Shown: positions 35,441-40,913 of the stretch, in pieces | How the letters are laid out: each line of letters opens with the position of its first letter | How positions within the stretch are numbered: position 1 is the stretch's first letter | Assembly (NCBI RefSeq): GCF_006539165.1 | Contig: NZ_BJMM01000013.1 | Coordinates: 1 to 64,000, forward strand | Origin: Streptomyces cacaoi | Lineage (GTDB): Bacteria > Actinomycetota > Actinomycetes > Streptomycetales > Streptomycetaceae | Direction: 5' to 3' | Length of the DNA: 64,000 bases | Notes under the pieces: generated by a model | Seen by the model: the letters and a program-made list of their open reading frames with translations, nothing else | Database searches by the model: none | What the model was told of the DNA's origin: nothing | Position numbers and translations under genes: made by a program

Positions 35441-36856
35441 TCAGCGCTTGTGCCCCACCGTCCGCCGCCGGGTCAACGCCGTGGCACCGTGCGGCGTTCG
35501 GGCCTTCGCCGCACCGCCGCCCTCGTCCGCGGTCTCGTCCCCCGTGCCGCCCCCCGCGCCGTCGCTCCGTGCGACCGCGCCGCCACCCGCGGGCTGTTCA
35601 CCACCGCCCCCGGCCTGCCCGGGACCGCTCCCCGGGGGCGTCTCGGACGCCGTGGAGGCCGCGGAAGCACCGGCCGCCGGGCCGTCCTCCCCGCGCCGGT
35701 AGCGGGGCGGCACGAACCCGCTGGCCCAGCGCGGCACTCGGGGCGTGAACCGGGGCAGCAGCAGGATCACCAGCCCCACGGCGCTCAGCACGACGATGGC
35801 CAGCACGATGGCGAGGCTGGAGGAGCGCACGGAGAAGGCGACGGCGCCGAAGGCGATCAACGCCGCCCAGAAATACATGATCAGGACGGCCCGGCTGTGC
35901 GAGTGCCCGATCTCCAGCAGCCGGTGGTGCAGATGCCCGCGGTCGGCCGCGAACGGCGACTGTCCGCGCCAGGTCCGGCGGACGATGGCCAGCACGAGGT
36001 CGGCGAACGGCACGGCGATGATCGTCAACGGCAGCAGCATGGGGATGTAGACGGGCACCATCGAGTGCACGGCCGAACGCATCGAACCCGTGCTGTCGGT
36101 GATGCGGTCCGGGTCGACCTGGCCCGTGATCGAGGCCGCGCCCGCGGCCAGCACCAGCCCGATGAGCATCGAGCCCGAGTCGCCCATGAAGATCCGCGCC
36201 GGATGCATGTTGTGCGGCAGGAAGCCCAGGCACATGCCCATCAGCACGGCCGCGAACAGCGTTGCGGGCGCCGCCGCTTCGATGCCGTAGCCGTACCACA
36301 TCCGGTACGCGTACATGAAGAACGCTGCGGCCGCGATGCACACCATGCCGCCGGCCAGACCGTCGAGCCCGTCGACGAAGTTCACGGCGTTGATGGTGAG
36401 CACGACCAGCGCGACCGTCAGCAGCGTGCCCTGGAGCGGGGTGAACGCCACGTTCCCCACACCGGGGATGGGGAGCCACAGGATGGTCAGGCCCTGCCAG
36501 ACCATGACGCCGGCGGCGATCATCTGGCCGCCGAGCTTCACCAGCGCGTCCACGCCCCACTTGTCGTCCAGGACGCCGATCAGCCAGATCAGCCCGGCGC
36601 CCGACAGCAGCGCCCTGGGCTCGTCGGAGAGCGTGAACAGCTCCCCGATGTTGGTCAGTTGAGAGGCGACGAGCAGACCCGCGCACAGCCCGCCGAACAT
36701 CGCGATACCGCCCAGCCTGGGCGTCGGCTCACGGTGCACGTCGCGCGCCCGTACCGGAGGCGCCGCACCGGCCGCGATGGCGAACTTCCGCACCGGCCCG
36801 GTCAGCAGATAGGTGACCGCGGCCGTGACGCAGAGCGTCAGCAGATATTCACGCAC
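35441..36856 (-). CDS. UDP-GlcNAc:undecaprenyl-phosphate GlcNAc-1-phosphate transferase (WecA/TagO family)
   Basis: 471-aa MraY/WecA-family membrane enzyme with about eleven helices. It starts the lipid-linked assembly of wall polymers. Motifs: DDKWGVDALVKLGGQ (Asp-Asp pair), NAVNFVDGLDGLAGG (catalytic Asp), FMGDSGSMLIG, and the WecA/TagO-specific loop DRGHLHHRLLEIGHSHSRAV. The last 90 residues are a disordered Ala/Gly/Thr-rich tail. Start GTG at 36856, preceded by GGGGAG. TATCGT at 36895-36900 is a possible -10. Confidence 0.93.
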   Translation of the reverse strand: MREYLLTLCVTAAVTYLLTGPVRKFAIAAGAAPPVRARDVHREPTPRLGGIAMFGGLCAGLLVASQLTNIGELFTLSDEPRALLSGAGLIWLIGVLDDKWGVDALVKLGGQMIAAGVMVWQGLTILWLPIPGVGNVAFTPLQGTLLTVALVVLTINAVNFVDGLDGLAGGMVCIAAAAFFMYAYRMWYGYGIEAAAPATLFAAVLMGMCLGFLPHNMHPARIFMGDSGSMLIGLVLAAGAASITGQVDPDRITDSTGSMRSAVHSMVPVYIPMLLPLTIIAVPFADLVLAIVRRTWRGQSPFAADRGHLHHRLLEIGHSHSRAVLIMYFWAALIAFGAVAFSVRSSSLAIVLAIVVLSAVGLVILLLPRFTPRVPRWASGFVPPRYRRGEDGPAAGASAASTASETPPGSGPGQAGGGGEQPAGGGAVARSDGAGGGTGDETADEGGGAAKARTPHGATALTRRRTVGHKR

Positions 36857-36973
36857 GGGCTCCCCAGAGTTCTCGTGGGCTGCTCAGGCCCCACACGATA
36901 GGTCACGTATCCCCGGCTGCCCGCTCCCGCGACGGCCGTGGTCCCCGGCCGCCGGGCCGCGCCGCTGCCGGAC

Positions 36974-36993
36974 GGCTCCCCGGCGGGGGAGCC
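36974..36993 (-). terminator. hairpin after the phosphatase-like gene
   Basis: Perfect 8-bp stem GGCTCCCC / GGGGAGCC with a 4-nt loop, between the prmC-sua5-phosphatase operon and wecA. Confidence 0.5.
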
Positions 36994-37125
36994 CGGCACG
37001 CCGCGCTCGGGCGGGCTGATCGCGCCGTGCGCACGCAGATGAGCGCACTGTGTGCTCACGGCGCCGCGCCACAGCCTAAGACACACGCCGCGGCCTGCTG
37101 GTTCTCGGTACGGCCCGCGGACGTC

Positions 37126-37788
37126 CTAGGTGTGCGCCGGAACACCCGTGAGCGCGGTGATCACCGGCTCCAGGGCCCCGTTGATCTCCTCGCCGACGGT
37201 GCGGAAGTACGGAATGGGAGCGCCGTACGGGTCGTAGATCTCGTCGGCCTCGGGGCTGGGCGCGAGCAGCCAGCCACGCAGCGCGGCGGCGGCCTGCACC
37301 AGCGCGTGCGCACGCTCGACGACGCTCTCGGCGGTCCGCGGCGCCGGCAGCGTCGCCGGGTCTATCGCCCGCACCAGTCGGGTGAACTCCTTGAGCGTGA
37401 AGGTGCGCAGGCCGGCGGAGTGGCCCATGGAGATGACCTGCGCCCGGTGGTCACGGGTCGCGGTCAGCACCAGGTCCGCCTTGATCACATGCTCGTCGAG
37501 CAGCTCACGGCCGATGAACCCGTCGGCGTCGGCGCCGTGTTCGTGCAGCACGGACACGGCGTTCTCCTCCATGGGCGCGCCCTCGTGGCCCCACGTGCCG
37601 GCGCTCTCCACCACGAGCCCGCCGGTGCGGCCGTCGCCGAGGCGGGCGGCCAGAGCATGCCGGGTGAGCCGCTCGGTGATCGGCGAGCGGCAGACGTTGC
37701 CTGTGGAGACGTGGAGGATCCGGAACGCGCCATCGGCGCCGCTTATGCCGCCGGCCTTGGCCGGGCCACGCCCTTCGGGGGCGGTCAC
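37126..37788 (-). CDS. LMW protein-tyrosine-phosphatase fold protein lacking the catalytic Cys
   Basis: 220 aa. The phosphate-binding loop reads HVSTGNVCRSP, where active low-molecular-weight phosphatases have C-x-G-N-x-C-R-S; the nucleophilic Cys position is Ser, confirmed as codon TCC on the minus strand. The second Cys, the loop Arg and the general-acid DPYG segment (EIYDPYG near the C-terminus) are kept. It should therefore bind phosphoryl groups but probably not hydrolyse them by the usual route. GTG start overlaps the stop of the threonylcarbamoyl synthase gene by one base. Upstream of a wall-polymer transferase, so an envelope-regulatory role is possible. Confidence 0.85.
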   Translation of the reverse strand: MTAPEGRGPAKAGGISGADGAFRILHVSTGNVCRSPITERLTRHALAARLGDGRTGGLVVESAGTWGHEGAPMEENAVSVLHEHGADADGFIGRELLDEHVIKADLVLTATRDHRAQVISMGHSAGLRTFTLKEFTRLVRAIDPATLPAPRTAESVVERAHALVQAAAALRGWLLAPSPEADEIYDPYGAPIPYFRTVGEEINGALEPVITALTGVPAHT

Positions 37789-38435
37789 TACGGGGCCACC
37801 TCCAGGCCCGGTACGACCTTGCGCAGCTCGTCGGCGCTGATCGCCCCCGCGCGCAGCAGCACGGGCGTGGAGCGGGTGACGTCGACGATGGAGGACGGCA
37901 CGGCCTCGGCCGTCGGCCCTCCGTCGAGATAGACCGCGACGGACTCGCCCAGCATCTCCTGGGCGGCGTCGCAGGTCTGCGGCGAGGGGTGACCGGTCAG
38001 ATTCGCCGAGGAGACGGCCATCGGGCCGAACTCGGTGAGCAGTTCGATGGCCACGGGGTGCAGCGGCATCCGTACGCCCACGGTGCCCTGCGTCTCGCCC
38101 AGGTCCCAGGCGAGGGAGGGCTGGTGCCGGGCGATGAGGGTGAGCGCGCCGGGCCAGAAGGCGTCGACGAGTTCCCAGGCCGTCTCGGAGAAGTCGGTCA
38201 CCAGCCCGTGCAGGGTGTTCGGTGAGCCGACGAGCACCGGCGACGGCATGTTGCGGCCGCGGCCCTTGGCCTCCAGGAGATCGCCGACGGCCTCGGAGTT
38301 GAACGCGTCGGCGCCCACGCCGTAGACGGTGTCCGTGGGCAGCACGACCAGCTCGCCGCGCTTGACCGCGGATGCGGCCTCGCGCAGGCCCATCGCGCGG
38401 TCGGAGGCGTCGGAGCAGTCATATCGCCGTGCCAT
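37788..38435 (-). CDS. L-threonylcarbamoyladenylate synthase (Sua5/YwlC/TsaC family)
   Basis: 215 aa. Makes threonylcarbamoyl-AMP from Thr, bicarbonate and ATP for the t6A modification of tRNAs reading ANN codons. Motifs: KRGELVVLPTDTVYGVGADA near 27-46 (Sua5 KxR-like nucleotide/Thr site), FWPGALTLI and AVSSANLTGHPSP. Start ATG at 38435; the preceding open frame (to 38930) is antisense to prmC. Genes for prmC and the phosphatase-like protein flank it within 2 nt. Confidence 0.93.
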   Translation of the reverse strand: MARRYDCSDASDRAMGLREAASAVKRGELVVLPTDTVYGVGADAFNSEAVGDLLEAKGRGRNMPSPVLVGSPNTLHGLVTDFSETAWELVDAFWPGALTLIARHQPSLAWDLGETQGTVGVRMPLHPVAIELLTEFGPMAVSSANLTGHPSPQTCDAAQEMLGESVAVYLDGGPTAEAVPSSIVDVTRSTPVLLRAGAISADELRKVVPGLEVAP

Positions 38436-38437
38436 GG

Positions 38438-39283
38438 TTACGGCACCTCCCTGCGTGCAGTGGCAAAACGGGGCCGGTTGTTCAGGTCGGGGTGGTCCGC
38501 GGCGTCCGCCCAGCCGCGGTCCTCGGTGAAGATCCAGGGCACCTGTCCGCCCTGGGTGTCGGCGTGCTCGATGACGACGACGCCCCCGGGGCGCAGCAGC
38601 CGGTGGGCCGCGCGCTCCAGGCCGCGGATCGTCTCCAGGCCGTCCTCGCCCGAGAACAACGCGAGCTGCGGGTCGTGGTCGCGGGCCTCGGGGGCGACAT
38701 ACTCCCACTCGGTGAGCGGAATGTACGGCGGATTGGAGATCACCAGGTCGACCTGGCCGTCGAGTTCCGGCAGCGCGGTGAGCGCGTCCGCGTGGTGCAG
38801 GGCGACGCGGGAGCCCTCGACGTTGCGGCGGGCCCACTCCAGGGCCCCCTCGTCGAGCTCCACGGCGTGCACCCGCGAGCGCGGCACCTCCTGGGCGAGG
38901 GCCAGGGCGATGGCGCCGGAGCCGGTGCACAGATCGACGATGAGCGGTTCGGCGACGTCCATGGCGCGTACCGCGTCTATCGCCCAGCCGACCACCGACT
39001 CCGTCTCGGGCCGGGGCACGAACACCCCTGCGCCGACCCGGAGTTCGAGGTAGCGGAAGAAGGCCCGGCCGGTGATGTGCTGCAACGGCTCCCGGGCCTC
39101 GCGCCGGGCGACGGCCTCCCAGTAGCGCGCGTCGAAGTCGGCGTCGGCGACCCGGTGCAGCTCCCCGCGTTTGACGCCGTGCACGAAGGCCGCCAGCTCC
39201 TCCGCGTCGAACCGCGGCGAGGGCACGCCCGCGTCGGCCAGCCGCTGTGTGGCCTGCGCGACCTCAGCCAGCAACACGTTCAC
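38438..39283 (-). CDS. prmC: peptide chain release factor N5-glutamine methyltransferase PrmC
   Basis: 281 aa. Methylates the Gln of the GGQ motif in RF1/RF2. AdoMet motif [17 protein letters not shown] (about 155-171) and catalytic NPPY ([11 protein letters not shown]). It sits right after prfA, its substrate gene, in the conserved prfA-prmC order, with 50 nt between. Confidence 0.96.
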
Positions 39284-39333
39284 GTTCCGTCCCCATCCGT
39301 CTCACCGCACCCTGCCGTATCCCGGGCCCGGAC

Positions 39334-40404
<1,071 letters not shown>

Positions 40405-40454
40405 CGTGTGCATCCCTTTGCTGGAGAAACGAAGGCGCCGCGGCGCCGGAACAC

Positions 40455-40504
40455 CAAAAGAGCGCCGGCCGTGCCGCCCCCGACGGGCGGCACGGGCCGG
40501 CGCT
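40455..40504 (-). terminator. strong terminator after rpmE
   Basis: Inverted repeat of 19 pairs with one bulged base (arms 40461-40479 and 40485-40504). On the minus strand it is followed by CTTTTGG. It lies between rpmE and prfA. Confidence 0.75.
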
Positions 40505-40513
40505 GTGGTGTCG

Positions 40514-40744
40514 CTACTTCTTGGCCGTGCCGGCGTTCTTGCCGAAGCGGGCCTCGAAGCGGGCCACACGGCCACCGGTGTCGAGGATCTTCTGCTTGCC
40601 GGTGTAGAAGGGGTGGCAAGCCGAGCAGATGTCGGCGCGGATGACGCCCTCCGACACGGTGCTACGGGTCGTGAACGAGTTGCCACAGGTGCAGCTGACC
40701 TGGGTCTCGTGGTACTCCGGGTGGATGTCGCGCTTCAAGGTCAC
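40514..40744 (-). CDS. rpmE: 50S ribosomal protein L31, zinc-binding type
   Basis: 76 aa. Four zinc ligands are kept: Cys18, Cys20 (VSCTCGNSF), Cys40 and Cys43 (DICSACHPF). This is the C+ form, which is normally replaced by a Cys-less paralogue under zinc limitation (Zur control). Conserved [13 protein letters not shown] segment present. Located upstream of prfA as in most Actinobacteria. Confidence 0.97.
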
Positions 40745-40913
40745 TCCTAGGTTCGGGAGGGCGCCGGGTCGGGAGACGGGTTGTCCACCGTGAACCGGGG
40801 CCGACGGTCAAGTTTGCCACTGCTGACCGCACCCCCCAAAACCGGGGCCCGGACGACGGTATTCCCCCGGTGCTCCCCGGCGCCGCACCGGCCCGGTTCC
40901 GGCGGAAGCGGCC

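Follow-up and report, generated by a model that had tools for sequence, protein, structure and literature searches.

Pseudophosphatases are best known from eukaryotes, and replacing the catalytic cysteine of a phosphatase with serine is the usual route to substrate traps. STYX, a eukaryotic pseudophosphatase, has retained its phosphatase fold after losing the nucleophile. It differs from the protein described here, which belongs to another fold family, is bacterial, lies beside sua5 and reflects a change that has arisen at least twice. As set out in excerpts of PMC8001253, LMW-type protein tyrosine phosphatases (LMW-PTPs) form a phospho-enzyme on their first cysteine, while the P-loop binds the phosphate and an aspartate serves as general acid. 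According to the same excerpts, loop position 5 is Thr in YwlE and PtpB, both arginine phosphatases, whereas a tyrosine-type enzyme has Ile there. A serine form of YwlE exists as a laboratory mutant; its entry, PDB 4kk4, carries the title 'YwlE arginine phosphatase - C7S mutant with phosphorylated active site serine'. Arginine phosphorylation has been reported in Mycolicibacterium smegmatis, and according to the excerpted text no arginine phosphatase had then been identified there or in M. tuberculosis (PMC9604228).

Searches of the open-licence literature found nothing on a Streptomyces protein tyrosine phosphatase as a pseudophosphatase, on YwlE C7S or on Sua5-phosphatase fusions. For bacterial LMW-PTP pseudophosphatases they led only to trypanosomatids, and for bacterial pseudophosphatases with catalytic cysteine and serine to work that, judged by titles and the first lines of abstracts, concerns eukaryotic phosphatases or phosphotyrosine-binding domains. 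A genus-wide phosphatase without its nucleophile, tied to a tRNA-modification gene and repeated independently, amounts to a natural experiment. The Cys and Ser versions share one gene order across sister genera and can be swapped, and the experiment might reveal what the sua5-linked phosphatase family does.

A phosphatase homologue with serine at the nucleophile position

The window analysed here is a stretch of 64,000 nucleotides from Streptomyces cacaoi. The features that concern us are the following:

35441-36856, minus strand: WecA/MraY-family glycosyltransferase (Pfam PF00953; under the ECA_wecA cut-off)
37126-37788, minus strand: LMW-phosphatase homologue (LMWPc) of 220 amino acids, with Ser28 at the nucleophile position (Pfam PF01451; YwlE-type PDB matches)
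37222-37233, minus strand: general-acid motif D186-P-Y-G (sequence and alignment)
37684-37707, minus strand: P-loop S-T-G-N-V-C-R-S, residues 28-35 (sequence; alignment with Cys homologues)
37788-38435, minus strand: sua5/tsaC homologue, threonylcarbamoyl-AMP synthase (TIGR00057, 192.3 bits, cut-off 123.2)
38438-39283, minus strand: prmC, release-factor methyltransferase (Pfam PrmC_N and methyltransferase domains)
39334-40686, minus strand: prfA, release factor 1, its true start probably within the ORF (Pfam PCRF and RF-1)

The phosphatase ORF opens with GTG. Its product belongs to the LMWPc fold family, with PF01451 matching residues 24-141 at 68.7 bits against a cut-off of 23.2. The nucleophilic Cys of the active LMW-PTP signature, C(X)4CR(S/T), is absent. 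The initial annotation had claimed a Cys-to-Ser replacement in this loop with the remaining active-site features intact, and both parts are confirmed: residue 28 is encoded by TCC (37705-37707), while the P-loop Arg, the second Cys, the Ser that follows and the Asp of DPYG are present and invariant, the Arg and the Asp across 139 Streptomyces proteins. Like the canonical LMW-PTPs MPtpA, Wzb and bovine LMW-PTP, the protein has the LMWPc domain, the P-loop Arg and Ser, the DPY motif and a hydrophobic residue at loop position 5. Unlike them, it lacks the catalytic Cys and, at 52.7 bits, falls far under the 247-bit cut-off of the NCBIfam equivalog models. It also lacks the nucleophilic P-loop Cys of arsenate reductases (ArsC), that residue being Ser28 here; ArsC models match 13, 10 and 9 of 16 aligned members weakly, and none is listed for the window protein. 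The window genome encodes one other LMWPc protein above the cut-off, on contig C44, with its Cys kept (CSGNICRS).

The serine is fixed throughout Streptomyces

All 121 Streptomyces genomes searched contain a strong match to the phosphatase. We read 176 syntenic loci from the genus, taking as syntenic those with an upstream Sua5 match on the same strand and midpoints no more than 1,600 bases apart. The loop is STGNVCRS in every one of them, in the main frame in 175 and in a second frame in L207, which excludes a sequencing or assembly error at Ser28. These loci come from 75 genomes and 80 named records, repeats included, and the two groups may overlap; the genome searches listed more matches than were fetched and read. 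The loci hold 148 distinct coding sequences, plus L207, and codon 28 among the 148 is AGC in 116, TCC in 27 and AGT in 5.

The rest of the active site is equally constant. In an alignment of 146 Streptomyces proteins (L196 and L208 left out; L207, with its P-loop in another frame, not counted), 120 positions are at least 99% conserved, including the whole P-loop and D186-P-Y-G, and the P-loop, D186, P187, Y188, G189 and P191 are invariant. Among 120 pairs drawn at random, dN/dS has a median of 0.18, a sign of purifying selection. By sequence, the protein has the features expected of a pseudophosphatase: the fold is kept, the nucleophile is lost and the sequence is conserved by selection.

These data bear on whether the gene is decaying and about to be lost. 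Three draft loci (L196, L207 and L208) could suggest so, since their reading frame is broken or their 3' end altered; these defects may be assembly errors. Against decay stand the presence of the gene in every genome searched, the conserved positions and the low dN/dS. On these grounds, and because all 176 loci read Ser, we rejected a pseudogene. Decay is extremely improbable given the invariant P-loop Arg, second Cys and Asp, a dN/dS of about 0.18 and, at 128 of 141 loci, a gene start that runs into the sua5 stop.

Could the protein still be an enzyme? It might act through Ser28, through Cys33 or through some other group, and its substrate might be activated or unusual. Cys33 and Asp186 are fully conserved in the 139 Streptomyces proteins compared, as are Gly30, Arg34 and Ser35, and such conservation is typical of enzymes. 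However, Cys33 is just as invariant in the Cys relatives compared, and the family mechanism needs the first Cys (excerpts of PMC8001253), making continued catalysis very unlikely.

For a codon to pass from one serine set to the other, two nucleotides have to change (PMC6872785). Within Streptomyces, codon 28 has moved between TCN and AGY at least three times, with no other residue seen. For comparison, at 22 further serines encoded in the operon and shared by at least 98% of rows, the number of such switches ranged from 0 to 9. The moves of codon 28 therefore point to constraint on Ser, but not to an unusual degree of it.

Cysteine gave way to serine at least twice

In the 16 other genera of Streptomycetaceae, the nucleophile is Cys in 36 of 36 genomes, and among syntenic orthologues from ten other families of the class it is Cys in 20 of 25 genomes and Ser in 5. 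The initial annotation had asked whether Ser is fixed in orthologues and held that Cys in most of them would refute a pseudophosphatase. The answer is divided: fixation holds for the genus, and beyond it Cys does prevail. Serine is therefore a derived state rather than a property of the family, and most orthologues outside Streptomyces, having kept their Cys, are presumably active. The five genomes with Ser are all those available from a separate order (family code f13), and their loop is STGNVCRS, as in Streptomyces. Of 74 non-syntenic loci, repeats included, the 71 that were read (all but L314, L315 and L322) have Cys.

The window's order has two further families, f40 and f41. Their 15 genomes (G297-G307, G309, G311, G313, G315) gave distant partial matches only, among the matches listed, so the gene may be absent from these families. 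LMW-phosphatase copies outside the operon, fetched from Streptomycetaceae, keep the Cys in 20 of 20. In 15 of these 20 accessory copies (L325-L335, L337-L339, L343), the nucleophile is kept and the second P-loop Cys is His or Tyr.

To count the changes, we used two trees. On a 144-row tree, which had the two P-loop columns removed and included 18 of the 141 distinct Streptomyces rows, there are at least 2 Cys/Ser changes and, among f1-coded rows, at least 4 Asn changes. A 69-row tree with 11 Streptomyces rows (L196, L197, L207, L208 and two CMGN rows left out) again gave 2 and 4. Forcing a single Ser clade on the 69-row tree cost 43 log units (p-AU 0.0007), and with that topology rejected, Cys must have become Ser at least twice. 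The Streptomyces Ser clade is nested within Cys genera, its sister being g7 (CTGNVCRS; support 97/84). The f13 clade adjoins Streptomycetaceae (support 82) in the 144-row tree and lies amid other Cys families in the 69-row tree, so its exact position is unsure; for both trees the program issued a long-branch warning that included the f13 rows.

The Asn of the P-loop is replaced in 18 of the 36 sister-genus genomes, by Ser in 17 and by Gly in 1 (L121-L127, L129-L131, L156, L160-L166). The Ser after the P-loop Arg has become Gly in 1 of the 36 (L158). Sister-genus enzymes with either change may be impaired too. A family in which catalysis has become less important would be expected to show such changes, with the Asn lost in at least four events and the Ser after the Arg lost as well. 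Other residues also separate the groups: S28 and T38 occur in none of the 35 Cys proteins of Streptomycetaceae. Three more residues are close to fixation in Streptomyces, and of the same 35 proteins 1 has S124, 4 have S197 and 7 have H26.

The Ser group is relaxed at most slightly, and Cys orthologues without the Asn more so. At matched Sua5 distance, the Ser group has a phosphatase-to-Sua5 distance ratio of 1.29, against 1.27 for Cys proteins with the Asn and 1.50 for those without it (L196, L197, L207 and L208 left out). All-pair slopes, which are unmatched for distance, are 1.34, 1.23 and 1.54 on Sua5 and 1.51, 1.32 and 2.06 on PrmC, in the same order. As the slopes of the Ser group are somewhat above those of the Cys proteins with the Asn, a slight relaxation may have occurred.

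The phosphatase gene overlaps sua5

Upstream of the phosphatase lie prfA, prmC and sua5, in that order. In the window, the phosphatase GTG shares 1 base with the sua5 stop codon, TAG. A start could be identified at 141 Streptomyces loci. With the first usable one taken at each, the overlaps amount to 4 bases in 120 loci and 1 base in 8; in the other 13, the phosphatase starts 28 to 118 bases past the sua5 stop. The grouping with tRNA-modification and release-factor methylation genes, recognised in the initial annotation, thus stands, with sua5 overlapped and prmC adjacent. A scan of positions 36700-40800 found no promoter-like sites and three terminator-like sites, all near 40.3-40.5 kb.

The overlap would favour a protein that works by binding another protein, for example Sua5, with a P-loop that no longer binds phosphate and a Ser that is tolerated. 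Many of the observations are compatible with a structural role in which phosphate has no part. Family members have also lost one P-loop residue or another on several occasions, which speaks for the same reading. Yet Gly30, Arg34, Ser35 and Asp186 show no variation in the Streptomyces proteins compared, and Ser was retained through changes of codon set. We regard a purely structural partner as unlikely.

Relation to YwlE and a proposed role

By single sequence and by profile, the closest PDB chains are 4egs (profile E 3.8e-33) and the YwlE arginine phosphatase 4pic (profile E 1.5e-29). AlphaFold gave a poor model (mean pLDDT 57.8, from a shallow alignment), and a fold search with it returned LMW-PTP and ArsC chains at low TM-scores, adding little to the sequence. 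The window protein shares with YwlE/PtpB-type arginine phosphatases similar TFTLKEF and DP[YF]G segments. It differs in having Ser for the nucleophile, Val rather than Thr at loop position 5, and an interval from TFTLKEF to DPYG that is longer by about 40 residues. Val occupies position 5 in 139 of 139 Streptomyces proteins and in 5 of 5 f13 proteins, which argues against phosphoarginine as the ligand; an arginine-phosphatase function, which we also considered, is weakened by the same residue. Searches for an arginine kinase (McsB) found none in 61 and in 41 genomes, and they are uninformative since the 14 control genomes gave none either.

We think it fairly probable that, at the base of Streptomyces, a YwlE-like LMW-phosphatase gene linked to sua5 exchanged its catalytic Cys for Ser and has since been maintained as a pseudophosphatase holding phosphate or a phospho-ligand. 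Ser in every Streptomyces genome checked, together with the independent repeat in a separate order, suggests that the gene is probably kept for a phosphate-holding or signalling protein and not for an ordinary enzyme. The serine P-loop would still form an anion pocket from Ser28, Arg34, main-chain amides and Asp186, a geometry to which the poor AlphaFold model lends no support. With the thiolate gone, turnover would cease. The protein, which may be made in proportion to Sua5, would bind a phosphorylated ligand or partner and could act as sensor, competitor or scaffold; both ligand and partner are putative, as is any influence on Sua5 or translation. Taken together, the family mechanism, the trapping seen with Cys-to-Ser changes and 4kk4 imply that a natural Ser version should bind phospho-ligands without multiple turnover. 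The C7S mutant of YwlE has the same change at the same place; it was made by hand, whereas the Streptomyces change is natural and fixed in a genus.

As the active-site serine of 4kk4 is, by the title of the entry, phosphorylated, the Ser version might hold phosphate covalently. Ser28 would then attack a high-energy phosphodonor once and keep a stable phosphoserine, as a single-turnover switch or a phosphate carrier. The title of 4kk4, the YwlE-type identity of the closest solved relatives and the invariance of the general-acid Asp, which a mere binder might not need, are consistent with such an acceptor; Val in place of the Thr of arginine phosphatases is not, and we consider the acceptor unlikely. 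With a phosphorylated serine deposited for C7S YwlE, a phosphoserine switch is the boldest open reading. In its fullest form, a phosphatase coupled to sua5 would have become, independently in two actinobacterial lineages, either a natural trap for substrates or a phosphoserine switch. Ser28 would take up or hold a phosphoryl group and signal the presence of a phosphorylated ligand to the prmC-sua5 translation cluster. We offer this as speculation that is unlikely to be correct as a whole.

The downstream gap and codon 28

The initial annotation also placed the phosphatase before a wall-polymer transferase. In the window, the wecA-like gene does lie 269 bases downstream (gap 36857-37125), but the association is loose: the gap is bimodal across the 103 loci where a wecA-like gene was within reach, and in a second tally it is long and gene-sized in 74 of 104 Streptomyces loci. 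Its length follows codon 28, being short in 26 of 27 TCC loci (long in 1) and long in 73 of 77 AGY loci, in line with two basal Streptomyces clades. The presence of TCC and AGY codons in these two clades makes two separate Cys-to-Ser events within Streptomyces possible. However, that tree requires no more than a single amino-acid change, and switches of codon set also occur at further near-invariant serines in the operon.

The sole long gap scanned, at the S. griseus locus L084 (5674-7074), is filled by the serine hydroxymethyltransferase gene glyA. We do not claim an old link between the phosphatase and glyA, as the long gap tracks AGY and not TCC codons. The window genome has one glyA match, on another contig, C49.
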